The position numbers were made by a program, and so were the translations under genes. This document shows positions 32,913 to 39,300 of a stretch of DNA of 64,000 nucleotides, piece by piece. The notes under the pieces were generated by a model. That model searched no databases and was not told where the DNA came from. It worked only from the letters and a program-made list of their open reading frames with translations. The stretch comes from an uncultured Candidatus Saccharibacteria bacterium (lineage in GTDB: Bacteria; Patescibacteriota; Saccharimonadia; Saccharimonadales; Saccharimonadaceae): assembly GCA_946530965.1 (NCBI GenBank), contig CAMNAK010000001.1:186001-250000 (forward strand), given 5' to 3'. Numbering within the stretch: the stretch's first letter is position 1; each line of letters opens with the position of its first letter.

Positions 32913-33392
32913 ATGCCACGTAAAGTAACCAGCAGCCTTCAGCGCAAAGTTATGCCAGATCGCAAATATCAGAGCGTTTTGGTATCCCGCCTAATCAACC
33001 GTTCTATGCTTGACGGCAAGAAACCTTCCGCAGAGCGCGCAGTCTATGCCGCAATCGAAGGTGCAGCCAAGAAGCTAAAGAGCGAAAATCCTGTCGAAGT
33101 TCTCGAACAGGCAATCAAGAATATTAGCCCAGATTTCGAGGTTAAGAGCCGCCGCGTTGGTGGTGCTAACTACCAGATTCCATTCCCAATCAATGGTCAT
33201 CGCCAGCTTCACTTCGCTATGATGTGGCTAGTCGCTGCCGCTCGTGGCCGCAATGGTATGCCATATGCAAAGCGTCTCGAAGCAGAAATCGTTGATGCTT
33301 ACAACGAAACCGGTACAGCCTTCAAGAAGAAAGAAGACTGCCACCGTATGGCAGAAGCAAACCGTGCATTCGCACACTTTGCTCGCGGATAA
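32913..33392 (+). CDS. rpsG: 30S ribosomal protein uS7
   Basis: 159 residues, ordinary length. MPRK start two bases after the rpsL stop, with AAGGAGGATA upstream. It contains the S7 signature near the N-terminus (DRKYQSVLVSRLINRSMLDGKK) and the E-site arm (RRVGGANYQIP). It nucleates 16S 3' domain assembly. A strong terminator follows, so fusA is not co-transcribed, unlike the textbook str operon. Confidence 0.97.
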   Translation: MPRKVTSSLQRKVMPDRKYQSVLVSRLINRSMLDGKKPSAERAVYAAIEGAAKKLKSENPVEVLEQAIKNISPDFEVKSRRVGGANYQIPFPINGHRQLHFAMMWLVAAARGRNGMPYAKRLEAEIVDAYNETGTAFKKKEDCHRMAEANRAFAHFARG

Positions 33393-33413: not shown

Positions 33414-33436
33414 CTCCCAGCAATGGGAGTTTTTTG
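33414..33436 (+). terminator. terminator of rpsL-rpsG
   Basis: CTCCCA (33414-33419), GCAA tetraloop, TGGGAG (33424-33429), then TTTTTT. Confidence 0.92.
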
Positions 33437-33489
33437 GTATTCTAAAATACTTGGCGCTTATGTTAAAATTAAGAAAAAGAGGTGAGGTA

Positions 33490-34200
33490 ATGCGGTATTT
33501 TAAGCTACCGCAAAAAATAACAATGAGGTCAAATTCTAAGAGAATAATATTCATAGCGTGCGGCGCCATAATTTTGCTGGGTCTAGTTGCGCTAGTATTT
33601 TTTATAATAAATTCTGCAAAAAGCACAACTTTGTCTATTCTTGTCGCGCCAACCGATTCTACTATTAAAGTAAACGGCAAAGAATACAAGAATGGCAATT
33701 ATAAGATTTTTCCAAGCGGCAAATATGAAGTAACCATCAAACGCGAAGGATTTGAAACAAAAGAGCTAACCCTAAGCGGCAACAAGGTTGTAAATATTCA
33801 TGAATATCTCGAAACAAGCGACATGAGCAAATATCGCGACTCCGCCGAAGATTACAAAGCTCTGAGACTAATCGCAGATTATAACGACAGCAAGATTTCG
33901 AGCTTCATTGAAGAGTCCAACAAAATCGAATCAATAAAATACAAGCTGCCAGTCTGGACCTCAGCACCTTATGACAACTACGACATCACGTCATCTCCTG
34001 GGATCAAACTAGCCGATGGCAACAGCGACCTAGAATGCAAAAAAATGTCCTGTATTATGGCTCTCATTGGAGGAAAAAGATCAAGCAGGGAAGATAAAGC
34101 CATAGAAGACAAAATCAAAGCTCTAGGATACGATCCAAAAGATTATCAAATTATTTACGTAGAAAACCACAATGTCAAGAACTATGATGCCGAAGAATAA
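33490..34200 (+). CDS. PEGA-domain surface protein
   Basis: 236 residues from the ATG at 33490; AGAGGTGAGG precedes it and TATGT-TAAAAT lies about 25 bases upstream, so the longer open frame running back into rpsG is not used. A membrane helix (about 20-44) is followed by a PEGA-like beta domain (about 48-110: LSILVAPTDSTIKVNGKEY, FPSGKYEVTIKREGF) and a 120-residue exported region with a CKKMSC pair. PEGA domains are surface-layer or cell-wall associated. First of three exported proteins placed between rpsG and fusA. Confidence 0.75.
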   Translation: MRYFKLPQKITMRSNSKRIIFIACGAIILLGLVALVFFIINSAKSTTLSILVAPTDSTIKVNGKEYKNGNYKIFPSGKYEVTIKREGFETKELTLSGNKVVNIHEYLETSDMSKYRDSAEDYKALRLIADYNDSKISSFIEESNKIESIKYKLPVWTSAPYDNYDITSSPGIKLADGNSDLECKKMSCIMALIGGKRSSREDKAIEDKIKALGYDPKDYQIIYVENHNVKNYDAEE

Positions 34201-36412
34201 AATTAGAATAGCAACAGCGACAGTGCTAGGGATAATAGGCCTTGTCGGTGTATTTGAAACAGTCCAAAACAATACTACAAAAGCAATCAATCCTCGCGAA
34301 AAATCCGAGCTAGACATCAGATTCTACGACGATCAAGCATGTGGCTCAACAGCAGCAGCTGACTGCGGCGAAGTAACAGGCATATCGGAAGACGACAGGC
34401 TTTACTCCTTGCTCGACCACTACGCAGGCTTGGCCCAAGAGCTCCAAAGGCAGACCGGCATACCGTGGGAGCTACCATTCATGCATGCGCGCGGCGAATC
34501 GGGTTTCTGCAATACTACCTTTGGCGACCTTAAAATGCTCTGGGACAATTATCAGAGTTTCAACTGTTTCGGTCTCCTAGAATCTGCAAACGGCTCGTAT
34601 CATATGGGAGCTACATTCAATAATGAGCACTCCGACCACATTAATCAGTTGGGCGGCGACCCTTCCCACTATGTTCAGGCATACTCCAGTATTGCAGATA
34701 ATTTTGCATCCTTCTTCTATGACTACATGCGCACTGGCGAGGATGATAGATTAGTTTTTGATGAAAGCAAGGTCAAAGACGTAAAATCCTACTACGATGG
34801 TTACTTCCGTCGTTATACAGGCCTAAGCTTCTCTAGCGATTACTACGCTAAATCTATAGGCGTACTCGAAAAAGTAAAGCAATACTCCATGGATAAAGGT
34901 TGGTCAAGCTCTGCAGAACTAGCAGAATCTATCCCTCTAGGAGGCCTTTTCACAGATCATGGTTTTACGACAAGACAGCAGGGCTGGCAAGAACAATCTA
35001 TGCATATTGCTTGCGATGGTACAGTTACAGACAAGGACGGCAAAGTCTATGTTCAGGGCGGTGGCGACATAGTCGCAAAGACTAAAGAAAAGAGCGAAAA
35101 TAAGGTCGCGAATAATCCAAAGATCGAAACCGCAAAAGAAGACGAAAAAGAGAAAAATAGAGACCAACAAACCGTTACGACGCCACAAGTCATAAGGGCT
35201 AATTTCCTAGATTCTCATCTTTCGACAAAATTCTACCTAACTACAAGCACGTCTGGCGGAAGCGAAGATGGTCTAACCGAAGAGCAAGCGCAATCACTCG
35301 TAGATTGGTATACAGACACAGCACACAATAACGAGCTAGATTTATCCTTATCTCTAGGCACGCACTGCAACTGTGTTAGTATGTCAAACTACTTTATTCA
35401 GAAGTTTACGAATCTTACGTTTGGCTCGAACGATGGCTACTTTGTCGTAGATAGTACATACTCCGCAAACCCAGACAAAACACTAGAAATCGAACACGCC
35501 AGCAGCATTTCAAAGATTACAATCCCATCTATCTTTAGCGATAAAGAAGGTAGCGGCCACACGGGCGTAATCGTCGGCTACGACAGCGCAACTCAGGAAT
35601 ACATATCTATCGAAGCAAACTGGACCGGCAGTTCAGTCAAAAACGATATGATGCAGATCGAAGGCTGCGGCAAAATGGGAAACGGAAAACTAAATGCAGG
35701 CTACACTAGTCGCAAAACATTGGCATTTTACCAGTCAAAAGACGCAAAATTCTTGCCAATCCCACTAGAATACATCAATCAGGAAGCATTACAGAAAATC
35801 GCCAACGGTCAATTCGGCGGAAGCCAAAAATGCGGAACCAACAAAGCATTTACCGGCGACTTCCCATTCATGAGCCAAGGTGACACAAGATGGGGCCAAT
35901 TACCATACCCACCAGGGAACGACAAAAATAACACGTATAAAAACTCCGGCTGCGGCATTACGTCATTTGCTATGATCGCAACCTATCTAGAAGGAGAAGA
36001 GATTACACCGCCAGACGTGTACGATAGAACAGGTGCAGTAACTTATAGTGGCAATCCTATCGGTGAAATGGCACAGCATTATAACATGGAAGCCATCGAC
36101 GTCACCGAAACCGATCTAGGCAACGGTTCCACAGACGAACAAATCGTGGCAGCTATTAATAAATACTTAAACGACGGATACCTAATCGAGCTTTCGGGCA
36201 GAATATCTTCCGGCAGTAATGGCGTCTTTTCAGACCAAGGACATTACATAGTTCTTTATGGTCGAGACTCTAAAGGCGAATGGCTAATGGCTGACCCAGG
36301 ACACAAAGACAATAACGGCAAAGCCTGGGATCCATTAAAGCTAGTAGGCATGGGTATTAATCGTGGTAATGGCGAAACTAAAATTTGGGCAATAAAGACG
36401 GCAGGTGAATAA
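34172..36412 (+). CDS. three-domain cell-wall lytic enzyme: glucosaminidase, CHAP and C39-like peptidase
   Basis: 746 residues. A signal peptide or anchor at about 10-30 is followed by a lysozyme-like glucosaminidase domain (about 75-250: GIPWELPFMHARGESGF with the catalytic-type Glu, then SIADNFASFFYDY). A charged linker precedes a CHAP-like amidase (HCNCVSMSNYF nucleophile Cys, GHTGVIVGYD His, IEANW Asn) and a C-terminal C39-family-like cysteine peptidase (NSGCGITSFAMIATYL, GHYIVLYG, ADPGH). It should cut both glycan and peptide bonds. The start overlaps the PEGA gene by 29 bases; ATGs at 34184 and 34187 are alternatives. Confidence 0.85.
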   Translation: MSRTMMPKNKIRIATATVLGIIGLVGVFETVQNNTTKAINPREKSELDIRFYDDQACGSTAAADCGEVTGISEDDRLYSLLDHYAGLAQELQRQTGIPWELPFMHARGESGFCNTTFGDLKMLWDNYQSFNCFGLLESANGSYHMGATFNNEHSDHINQLGGDPSHYVQAYSSIADNFASFFYDYMRTGEDDRLVFDESKVKDVKSYYDGYFRRYTGLSFSSDYYAKSIGVLEKVKQYSMDKGWSSSAELAESIPLGGLFTDHGFTTRQQGWQEQSMHIACDGTVTDKDGKVYVQGGGDIVAKTKEKSENKVANNPKIETAKEDEKEKNRDQQTVTTPQVIRANFLDSHLSTKFYLTTSTSGGSEDGLTEEQAQSLVDWYTDTAHNNELDLSLSLGTHCNCVSMSNYFIQKFTNLTFGSNDGYFVVDSTYSANPDKTLEIEHASSISKITIPSIFSDKEGSGHTGVIVGYDSATQEYISIEANWTGSSVKNDMMQIEGCGKMGNGKLNAGYTSRKTLAFYQSKDAKFLPIPLEYINQEALQKIANGQFGGSQKCGTNKAFTGDFPFMSQGDTRWGQLPYPPGNDKNNTYKNSGCGITSFAMIATYLEGEEITPPDVYDRTGAVTYSGNPIGEMAQHYNMEAIDVTETDLGNGSTDEQIVAAINKYLNDGYLIELSGRISSGSNGVFSDQGHYIVLYGRDSKGEWLMADPGHKDNNGKAWDPLKLVGMGINRGNGETKIWAIKTAGE

Positions 36413-36413
36413 T

Positions 36414-37100
36414 ATGGACGAGGAATATCAGAAAAAGCAAGACAGACAAAAGAAAATCCTTATTGCAATCGCCGTATTAGCCGCAATCGCATTATGTACG
36501 GCCGCAATAATCGTTGTATTGAAAAATATTGACGAATCCATTGTAGATAAAGAGCCAGAAGACACGGATATCAAAACAGCAGGCGGCCAAGCTCTTCAAG
36601 TTTGCCTAAACGAAGCAAATATTGGCGGAAAGAGAGCGCTTCTTACGACCAATATTCTAACGGACTATATAGCTAGTGTAGGCGAAGATACAAAGACCGC
36701 GCAGTGCGAACAAACCAAGCAAGGCGATGTCTTCAAAATCAAAACCGACAAGACAGAATACAAGCTCAAGATCGAAAAAGAAGGCTATATTGAAGCTAAG
36801 CTCACTTTATCGATAGGCGATAACGAGACATTCAGCTTTGACACTAAGAATTATCCACGCAAATACATCGAAAACGAGAAGCTAAGAGATTATCTACCAG
36901 GCTACGTCGATCACGACAATAAGCGTGACTCGTATTATTATTTCGACACAAATACCATTTATATCCACTCCGACGAGTGCAACAAAGACGAAATGAGCTA
37001 CGTCAAAAACCAAGTCAAACAGCAAATTTTCGACCTTGGCGCAGACGCAGAAACGCTCGAATACCACTTCGTCAACCAAATGGGACTTTGTAGCGAGTAA
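36414..37100 (+). CDS. PEGA-like surface protein
   Basis: 228 residues from the ATG at 36414, one base after the lysin stop. Charged N-terminus, membrane helix at about 16-37, then an exported region with a PEGA-like beta stretch (KTDKTEYKLKIEKEGYIEAKLTLSI, about 115-145). The C-terminal part (NQVKQQIFDLGADAETLEYHFV) resembles that of the PEGA protein at 33490, so the two flank the lysin as distant paralogues. Four cysteines outside the membrane. Third gene of the operon. Confidence 0.7.
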   Translation: MDEEYQKKQDRQKKILIAIAVLAAIALCTAAIIVVLKNIDESIVDKEPEDTDIKTAGGQALQVCLNEANIGGKRALLTTNILTDYIASVGEDTKTAQCEQTKQGDVFKIKTDKTEYKLKIEKEGYIEAKLTLSIGDNETFSFDTKNYPRKYIENEKLRDYLPGYVDHDNKRDSYYYFDTNTIYIHSDECNKDEMSYVKNQVKQQIFDLGADAETLEYHFVNQMGLCSE

Positions 37101-37102
37101 TA

Positions 37103-37144
37103 ACACTTTTCACCCGTTGAAAAAAGTGTAAAAAGTATGATAAT
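37103..37144 (+). promoter_or_regulatory. fusA promoter with overlapping inverted repeat
   Basis: TTGAAA (37117-37122), 16 bases, GATAAT (37139-37144). ACACTTTT (37103-37110) pairs with AAAAGTGT (37122-37129) across the -35 box, so it could be an operator or a weak terminator without a T-run for the preceding gene. Leader of about 55 bases with CAGC/GCTG pairing. Confidence 0.6.
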
Positions 37145-37206: not shown

Positions 37207-39300
37207 ATGGCTACAAAAGAAGAAGACCTATCTATGTATAGGAACATTGGTATTATCGCGCACATCGATGCTGGTAAAACCACTACTTCCGAGGCGATTC
37301 TTTATCGTACCGGTCTTAAGCACAAAATCGATCTCGTCAAAGGCGATACCGGTGGTGCTACAACCGACTGGATGGAGCAGGAAAAGGAGCGCGGTATTAC
37401 AATTACTTCCGCAGCTGTCACTGCCCACTGGAAGGGTCACAAAATTAACATTATCGATACCCCAGGACACATCGACTTTACCGCTGAGGTCGAACGCTCT
37501 CTACGCGTTCTCGACGGTGCAGTCGTAGTCTTCGATGGTAAGATGGGCGTTGAAGCTCAGTCTGAAACCGTTTGGCGCCAGGCAGACAAGTACGGCGTTC
37601 CTCGCATCTGCTTCGTCAACAAAATCAACCAGATCGGTGGTGATTTCTACAAATCCCTAGAATCTATCCGTAAGCGCCTAAGCAAGAACGCTTTCGCAAT
37701 CCACCTACCAATCGGCTTCGAAAAGGATATCTGCGGCGTTGTCGACCTTCTAGATATGAAGGCTTACACCTACAAGGATTATGCCGATCACGAGCTTACC
37801 GTTGGTGAAATCCCAGCAGACATGGTAGAAAAGGCAAAGCAGTACCGTTCTATGCTTGTCGAGGAAGCTGTTCAGGCTGACGAAGAACTCATGAACAAGT
37901 TCTTTGAAGAAGGCGAAGAAGCTATCTCTGTCGATGAACTTAAGCGTGCTTTGCGTAAGCGTGTTATCGATGGTCAGTTCTATCTAGTCACTGGTGGTGA
38001 TGGCCGTGGCGTTATCGTCGAGAAGGTTCTTGACCTTGTTGCTGACTTCTTGCCAGCTCCAACAGACATCCCAGCAATTCTTGGTAAAAACCCTAAGACT
38101 GGCGAAGATATCGTACGCCACAGCGACACTAAAGAGCCTCTAACCGCTCTAGCATTCAAGATTGCAACCGACCCATTCGTAGGTAAGCTAATCTTCGTCC
38201 GTGTTTACTCTGGTAAGCTTGCTGCTGGTAGCTACATTCTTAACGCTACAACTGGCAACAAGGAACGCGTTGGCCGTCTAGTCCGCATGTTCGCAGATAA
38301 GCGCGAAGATATTCAGGAAATCGGCGCAGGTGATATCGCAGCCGTCGTAGGTCTAAAAGACACTACAACTGGTACAACACTTTGCGACCCAGCACACCCA
38401 ATTCACCTAGAATCTATCGAATTCCCAGATCCACCAGTATCCATCGCCGTAGAGCCAAAATCTAAGGCAGATCAGGAAAAGATGGGCATCGGTCTTGGTA
38501 AGCTAGCAGAAGAAGACCCAACCTTCAAGGTTCACACCGACGAAGAAACTGGCCAGACAATCATTTCTGGTATGGGTGAGCTTCACCTAGATATTATTAT
38601 CGACCGCCTAAAGCGCGAATTTAACGTCGAATGTAACACTGGTGAGCCTCAGGTTGCTTACCGCGAAACTATTCGTGGCACAGCCGAAGGTCACGGCTTC
38701 CACAAGAAGCAGTCCGGTGGTCGCGGTCAGTATGGTGACGTTTGGGTTAAGTTTGAGCCAAACGAGCCAGGCAAGGGCTTCGAATTCATCGATCAGATTA
38801 AAGGCGGTGTCGTTCCTCAGGAATACCGCAAGCCAACCATGGAAGGTATCGAAGAAACCCTCAACGGCGGTGTTATTGCTGGTTATCCAGTACTCGACGT
38901 TAAGGCAACCCTCTATGATGGTAGCTACCACGATGTCGACTCTAGCGAACTAGCCTTCCACCTTGCAGGTGTCCTCGCTACTCGCGAAGGTATCAAGAAA
39001 GCAAATCCAGTTCTTCTTGAGCCAGTCATGAAGATCGAAATCACAACTCCAGAAGACTTCATGGGTGACGTTATCGGCGATTTGAACTCTCGCCGTGGCC
39101 GCATCGATGAGATGGAAGATCGTGAAAACGGTATCAAGATCATCAAGGGCTTCGTCCCACTAGCAAACATGTTTGGTTACACTTCCGACCTACGCGGTAT
39201 GTCCCAGGGTCGCGCAGCTTCTACAATGGAGCTACACGGCTATGAAGAGGTTCCACCGAACATCGCTAACGAAATTATCGAGAAACGCAATTCTAAGTAG
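37207..39300 (+). CDS. fusA: translation elongation factor G with an altered G4 motif
   Basis: 697 residues, full length with all five domains. The P-loop is AHIDAGKTT (18-26), switch II DTPGHIDF (84-91). The guanine-specificity motif, NKxD in nearly all GTPases, reads NKIN at 138-141 (codon 141 AAC, 37627-37629). Domain IV is intact (HGFHKKQSGGRGQYG and GYPVLDVKATLYDGSYHDVDSSE). It catalyses tRNA-mRNA translocation. AAAGGAAATAC precedes the ATG. It has its own promoter and terminator and is separated from rpsG by three exported proteins and from tuf by two unknowns. Confidence 0.97.
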   Translation: MATKEEDLSMYRNIGIIAHIDAGKTTTSEAILYRTGLKHKIDLVKGDTGGATTDWMEQEKERGITITSAAVTAHWKGHKINIIDTPGHIDFTAEVERSLRVLDGAVVVFDGKMGVEAQSETVWRQADKYGVPRICFVNKINQIGGDFYKSLESIRKRLSKNAFAIHLPIGFEKDICGVVDLLDMKAYTYKDYADHELTVGEIPADMVEKAKQYRSMLVEEAVQADEELMNKFFEEGEEAISVDELKRALRKRVIDGQFYLVTGGDGRGVIVEKVLDLVADFLPAPTDIPAILGKNPKTGEDIVRHSDTKEPLTALAFKIATDPFVGKLIFVRVYSGKLAAGSYILNATTGNKERVGRLVRMFADKREDIQEIGAGDIAAVVGLKDTTTGTTLCDPAHPIHLESIEFPDPPVSIAVEPKSKADQEKMGIGLGKLAEEDPTFKVHTDEETGQTIISGMGELHLDIIIDRLKREFNVECNTGEPQVAYRETIRGTAEGHGFHKKQSGGRGQYGDVWVKFEPNEPGKGFEFIDQIKGGVVPQEYRKPTMEGIEETLNGGVIAGYPVLDVKATLYDGSYHDVDSSELAFHLAGVLATREGIKKANPVLLEPVMKIEITTPEDFMGDVIGDLNSRRGRIDEMEDRENGIKIIKGFVPLANMFGYTSDLRGMSQGRAASTMELHGYEEVPPNIANEIIEKRNSK

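Follow-up and report, generated by a model that had tools for sequence, protein, structure and literature searches.

A candidate wall-lytic cassette between rpsG and fusA of a Saccharibacteria genome and its modular relatives linked to the type IV secretion system

In the 64,000-nucleotide stretch analyzed here (hereafter the window), which comes from the genome of an uncultured Saccharibacteria bacterium, a tiny gut epibiont, rpsG (32913-33392) and fusA (37207-39300) enclose three co-directional open reading frames (ORFs), P0001, P0002 and P0003 (Table 1). The first-pass annotation had placed a PEGA protein, a three-domain lytic enzyme and a PEGA-like protein at this position, and this arrangement was confirmed by the ORFs, by Pfam and by profiles built from relatives. 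An alternative ATG at 34172 would extend P0002 to 746 aa. The trio looks like a transcription unit of its own rather than a product of read-through from the str operon, because a terminator-like hairpin follows rpsG, a putative extended −10 element and a ribosome-binding site precede P0001, and fusA has a separate promoter-like site. The hairpin is also kept in G035 and G011, two other genomes with the trio at this site, in which the 110 bases 3' of rpsG are almost invariant and the putative extended −10/ribosome-binding stretch shows no base changes. The hairpin was absent from the list produced by our pattern scan, probably due to A/T flanks that lengthen its stem.

Table 1. Features of the rpsG-fusA interval, in window coordinates.
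Feature	Position	Strand	Evidence
Intrinsic-terminator-like hairpin 3' of rpsG, CTCCCA-GCAA-TGGGAG-TTTTTT	33414..33435	+	by eye from sequence
Extended −10 promoter-like element upstream of P0001, TGTTAAAAT	33461..33469	+	by eye from sequence
Putative ribosome-binding site upstream of P0001, AGGTGAGG	33480-33487	+	by eye from sequence
P0001, predicted transmembrane-anchored PEGA protein, 236 aa	33490..34200	+	Pfam, family alignment A1, AlphaFold2
P0002, predicted exported multidomain lysin, 741 aa from ATG 34187	34187..36412	+	ORFs, Pfam, profiles
N-terminal family tag, P0002 residues ~40-52, ELDIRFYDDQACG	34304..34342	+	pattern, profile
GH73 glucosaminidase-type domain, P0002 residues 72-245	34400..34921	+	Pfam (0.0057), family profile, alignment A4
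CHAP domain, P0002 residues 372-526	35300..35764	+	local family profile, alignment A5
C39-covering tract, replaced or fast-diverging in G011	35700..36410	+	Fisher, sliding window
C39-like peptidase domain, P0002 residues 554-708	35846..36310	+	Pfam C39_2, alignment A6
P0003, predicted transmembrane-anchored protein of the third-gene family, 228 aa, one transmembrane helix	36414..37100	+	Pfam, alignment A2
Promoter-like site ahead of fusA, TTGAAA-16-GATAAT	37117..37144	+	pattern scan

P0002 is the sole member of the trio that looks like a secreted enzyme. A hydrophobic N-terminal segment (approximately residues 5-26), which could serve as export signal, is followed by a GH73 domain, a charged linker, a CHAP domain and a C39_2 domain. 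Only the last of these passes in Pfam (E = 2.1e-10, 41.8 bits versus a cut-off of 24). The Pfam Glucosaminidase match lies under the gathering cut-off (E = 0.0057), there was no Pfam CHAP match for P0002 alone, and both domains were assigned with profiles built from relatives. The GH73 family profile matches FlgJ structures (E = 1.3e-7) and the CHAP family profile matches the CHAP domain of PcsB (E = 2.2e-8); a sequence relative of the C39 profile was not found in the PDB. Alignment revealed no loss of active-site residues in any of the three domains. The GH73 catalytic residue Glu104 (codon at 34496) is invariant, the CHAP catalytic set is kept as Cys396 (codon at 35372), His458 (35558) and Glu476, and in the C39-like domain Gln564, Cys589 and His686 are invariant in the family, the position of Asp703 being occupied by Asp or Asn. 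By its predicted domains and catalytic residues, P0002 is thus a candidate exported hydrolase with glycan-cutting and peptidase domains, in line with the earlier claim that one polypeptide unites a glycan-cutting domain with two cysteine-peptidase-like domains. The structure prediction proposed as a check was informative for P0001 (pLDDT, the AlphaFold2 confidence score, of 84.7) and not for P0002. For the latter, a 40-row fragment alignment gave a mean pLDDT of 42, with most of the C39 region at ~66-83 and the GH73 and CHAP domains without a usable model. A Foldseek search with this model returned no significant match, the best being 9l5u_A, a papain-like toxin/immunity pair (E = 0.22).

The two flanking proteins look membrane-anchored rather than secreted, so that of the three exported proteins originally proposed only P0002 appears to be of the secreted type. 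P0001 combines one N-terminal transmembrane helix with a PEGA domain (Pfam E = 3.9e-5, over the gathering cut-off) and a C-terminal alpha/beta domain that carries two family-invariant cysteines. Its AlphaFold2 model matched only beta-sandwich domains in the PDB, such as the carboxypeptidase transthyretin-like domain. It belongs to the PEGA family of alignment A1 with 235 bits (E = 2.2e-70), a score to which its own presence in the seed contributes. The PEGA match of P0003 is under the Pfam cut-off (E = 0.008). At its C-terminal end it can be aligned with the matching segment of P0001 family members (hhalign 91.6%, 31 columns), which agrees with the suggestion that the flanking proteins are paralogues. 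A PADLOC match of P0003 to REase_II (15 bits) was judged to be a chance hit.

Chance can be excluded as the origin of this arrangement because the trio is intact in two other genomes and dN/dS, the ratio of nonsynonymous to synonymous substitution rates, is 0.06-0.10 for P0001, P0002 and P0003. All three genes are under purifying selection. The lysin is 96% identical in G035 and 94% in G011, and the records matching these genomes are the sheep-rectum Saccharibacteria metagenome-assembled genome RGIG6504 and a second Saccharibacteria metagenome-assembled genome, S16M_St_8. Within the lysin gene, the differences of G011 are concentrated at the end (35700-36410), where they reach 15% of sites as compared to 5-7% in the rest of the gene and 4% in fusA (Fisher p-values 8e-9 and 3e-13). 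This divergence of the C39-covering tract is as expected from domain replacement by recombination, while faster local divergence may be an alternative. Across the genus, the gap between rpsG and fusA extends from as little as 89 bases (G022) to over 7 kb and holds varying cargo. Lysin cassettes occupy this site in the source genome (G000), G035, G011, G014, G031, G007 and, incompletely at a contig end, G001. At the rpsG-fusA junctions compared (L052-L087), the commonest cargo is a protein of 472-474 aa starting ...LIYQIYP, which may be GH13-like; neither the window nor G035, G011 or G014 contains it.

The first-pass annotation regarded the enzyme as an unusual wall-degrading tool. Searching other Saccharibacteria for the trio, as had been suggested, showed that it also occurs beyond the window and placed the lysin in a genus-wide, shuffled cassette family. 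The PEGA profile detects ~53 loci at 80 bits or more in 36 of the 45 genus genomes. A tagged lysin adjoins the PEGA gene at 42 of 54 inspected loci, the others being at contig ends, split or without a lysin, and the genes mostly follow the order PEGA, lysin, second transmembrane protein. Among the sites of the cassettes are rpsG/fusA, the region upstream of rpsL, rpsI, ftsH/murJ and rplJ. Among 50 lysins we distinguished 22 architectures, with three to five catalytic domains per protein drawn from GH73, Phage_lysozyme2, GDSL, CHAP, NlpC-like, C39, Amidase_2 and VanY. Labels that Pfam did not confirm come from local profiles seeded with Pfam-labelled members, and the assignment as NlpC-like is a weak one (Pfam 0.001-0.006). 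Throughout these architectures the PEGA and third-gene families remain constant. Nearly all cassette lysins also share a tag after the export signal, [IV]x[FY]Y[DNK]P..C, the corresponding stretch of the window lysin being DIRFYDDQAC. In its strict form the pattern occurs in 45 of the 50 lysins. The only two further instances, among 313 other ORFs, again fall in a lysin or a lysin fragment.

Several members of the family deserve separate mention. The source genome has a second cassette between ftsH and murJ (L050:6945-10502, on G000:C2) with the architecture GH73-Amidase_2-CHAP; its GH73 domain is strong (Pfam 6e-19), and its CHAP domain looks inactivated, with NNDTS in place of the cysteine-containing NCV. 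Four PEGA genes at the ftsH-murJ site (L121, L123, L126 and L128) have no neighbouring lysin, the enzyme having been lost or never present. The lysins of L043, L041, L044, L045, L040 and L096 have a common N-terminal domain (residues ~60-265) where others place the glycan cutter, and Pfam scans of two of these lysins gave no match for this domain.

The evidence that links this family to a known system comes from the type IV secretion system (T4SS). The T4SS operon of the source genome (L091) comprises a pilin-like array, PrgI, a TraG-type VirB4 and a virB6-like protein, and its last genes, ahead of recF and dnaN, encode a tagged lysin (Phage_lysozyme2-GDSL-NlpC-like) and a transmembrane PEGA protein. 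The same terminal arrangement recurs in G005, G018, G019 and G031, and a lysin and PEGA pair adjoining recF is also found in other families of the order. Homology between cassette and T4SS PEGA proteins extends over the whole length of both (probability 99.85; E = 1.3e-30 for an independent T4SS PEGA profile against family A1). In a PEGA tree rooted between them the two groups are separate, the deep nodes being without resolution. The whole trio is found in a sister genus, where G119 carries directly behind virB4 (80% identical), within the T4SS operon, a PEGA protein (126 bits), a lysin made up of a tagged GH73 part and a C39+CHAP part, and a third transmembrane protein. The latter matches the P0003 family (97%, E = 7e-11) and one of its members (2e-14), and residues 40-144 of P0002, running from the tag into GH73, match the tagged GH73 part of this operon (1e-10). 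Third proteins at T4SS loci of more distant families gave no convincing match to the P0003 family (23.5%).

Some of these T4SS loci have features of their own. The G119 lysin (L164:3955-6032) consists of two ORFs, tagged GH73 and C39+CHAP, which may reflect a true split, a frameshift or an assembly error. In G188 (L165:8152-12208) two tagged GH73-NlpC-like lysins stand in tandem with a PEGA protein after each, possibly a snapshot of cassette birth. According to local profiles, G184 lysins (L166:6069-9170 and L167:5770-8277) contain two to three consecutive NlpC-like domains plus CHAP. The virB6-like protein of G019 (L047:7191-10487) itself bears a CHAP domain, besides a separate lysin; its counterpart in the source genome (L091:11235-14060) had no Pfam match.

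Comparison with described systems places the cassettes closest to wall hydrolases of conjugation machines. Like the VirB1/CwlT/TraG-type T4SS hydrolases of monoderm conjugation, the lysins would be exported and combine a glycan cutter with a CHAP/NlpC-type peptidase in one protein, and their homologues sit in the T4SS operon beside virB4 and virB6. Unlike these hydrolases, the cassettes lie mostly outside the T4SS operon, occur several per genome and have three to five shuffled domains, a shared tag and constant PEGA-type transmembrane partners. With the lysin and PEGA pair at the T4SS locus of Saccharibacteria the window copy shares the tagged lysin and a full-length homologous PEGA protein, whereas it is free-standing and has GH73-CHAP-C39 instead of Phage_lysozyme2-GDSL-NlpC-like. 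For Ca. Southlakia epibionticum, PMC12102498 reports, citing PMC10633639, that peptidase and lysozyme homologues just downstream of virB4 are essential for epibiotic growth; these genes may be of the same family as the T4SS-locus pair.

The P0002 lysin is one member of a modular, T4SS-linked family rather than a lone oddity. Read most simply, these data suggest that a T4SS wall-breaching module gave rise to the stand-alone cassettes or exchanges with them. We propose that the trio is a free-standing, diversifying copy of this module, in which the PEGA partners keep the lysin at the cell surface and the host wall is the probable target, and we give this proposal a probability of about one half. 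The lysin would be exported via Sec, with the family tag following the signal. It would then be retained through its tag and the two transmembrane-anchored PEGA-type proteins, whose most likely role is to tether, place or gate it on the surface, probably at a host contact used by the T4SS. There, the GH73 glycan cutter and the CHAP and C39-like cysteine-peptidase-type domains together could cut peptidoglycan at several bonds and open it locally where the epibiont touches its host. Swapping of catalytic domains between cassettes may allow the epibiont to keep pace with its bacterial hosts as their wall chemistry changes. Lytic activity, the host-wall target, the physical partnership with the PEGA proteins and the coupling to the T4SS are what we infer from sequence comparisons, and the best support for the host wall as target, an indirect one, is the homology to the lysin and PEGA genes of T4SS operons. 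Several observations weigh against this proposal. No T4SS genes adjoin the window trio, which lies between rpsG and fusA outside the T4SS gene cluster, the virB4 of this genome being on another contig (G000:C2:169362). A recognised wall-binding domain was not found, and the tag of P0002 matches a family profile built without the window copy only marginally (E = 0.44). A clear cassette is absent from about one fifth of the genomes, so the cassette is not essential everywhere. Finally, use on the organism's own wall predicts largely the same sequence picture.

That last possibility, a membrane-tethered autolysin system serving cell separation, growth or the building of surface machines across the wall of the epibiont itself, is the strongest of the alternatives, though we consider it rather unlikely. 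GH73 and CHAP are typical of autolysins, and P0002 shares these fold families with FlgJ-type enzymes and PcsB; its transmembrane-anchored partners resemble regulators such as FtsX, which acts on PcsB, and in T4SS assembly it is the wall of their own cell that VirB1-type enzymes clear (PMC12102498). Neither PcsB nor the FlgJ-type autolysins, however, unite GH73, CHAP and C39-like domains or have PEGA partners, three to five catalytic domains per protein are more than local trimming requires, and the patchy, multiplied and shuffled distribution among close relatives is unlike that of a core division function. In our view, a host-variable target fits the diversity of the cassettes better than the organism's own wall does. 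Less likely still is a polymorphic antibacterial toxin, in which the lysin would be released or delivered against competing bacteria or other epibionts, with one or both of the PEGA proteins serving as membrane immunity protein or chaperone. The constant N-terminal tag before shuffled toxic-type domains, the small membrane genes flanking the lysin and the accessory distribution would suit such a system. Immunity proteins usually vary with the toxin domain, whereas the PEGA and third-gene families are unchanged across catalytic domains; moreover, PEGA genes occur without a lysin at some loci, and homologues lie inside the T4SS operon itself. A relic of phage origin, in which a lysis or tail-lysin gene was inserted into the str region and now decays or idles, is very improbable: modular phage endolysins and tail lysins have combinatorial catalytic domains in common with the cassette lysins, related cassettes contain Phage_lysozyme2 domains and seven phage records gave weak C39-only matches (27-35% identity), but P0002 has no relatives in IMG/VR and no PHROG match, the cassettes are chromosomal, apparently exported and accompanied by membrane partner genes outside any phage context, and the low dN/dS, the conserved trio and the T4SS homology all speak against a relic.

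The T4SS of Saccharibacteria is conserved and essential, and its role has been termed completely unknown (PMC11665869). As a more speculative extension of the proposed wall-breaching copy, the cassettes might be exchangeable cartridges, in which tagged, domain-shuffled lysins and their PEGA adaptors dock on a shared T4SS/host-contact apparatus and host range partly tracks the cartridges carried; we regard this as possible and no better than tentative. How host walls are breached by Saccharibacteria has not been established, and for this process the cassette family supplies concrete candidate genes, a shared tag and partner proteins. Linked to the T4SS through homology and operon structure, the family leads to the prediction that the domain content of the lysins follows the wall chemistry of the host.

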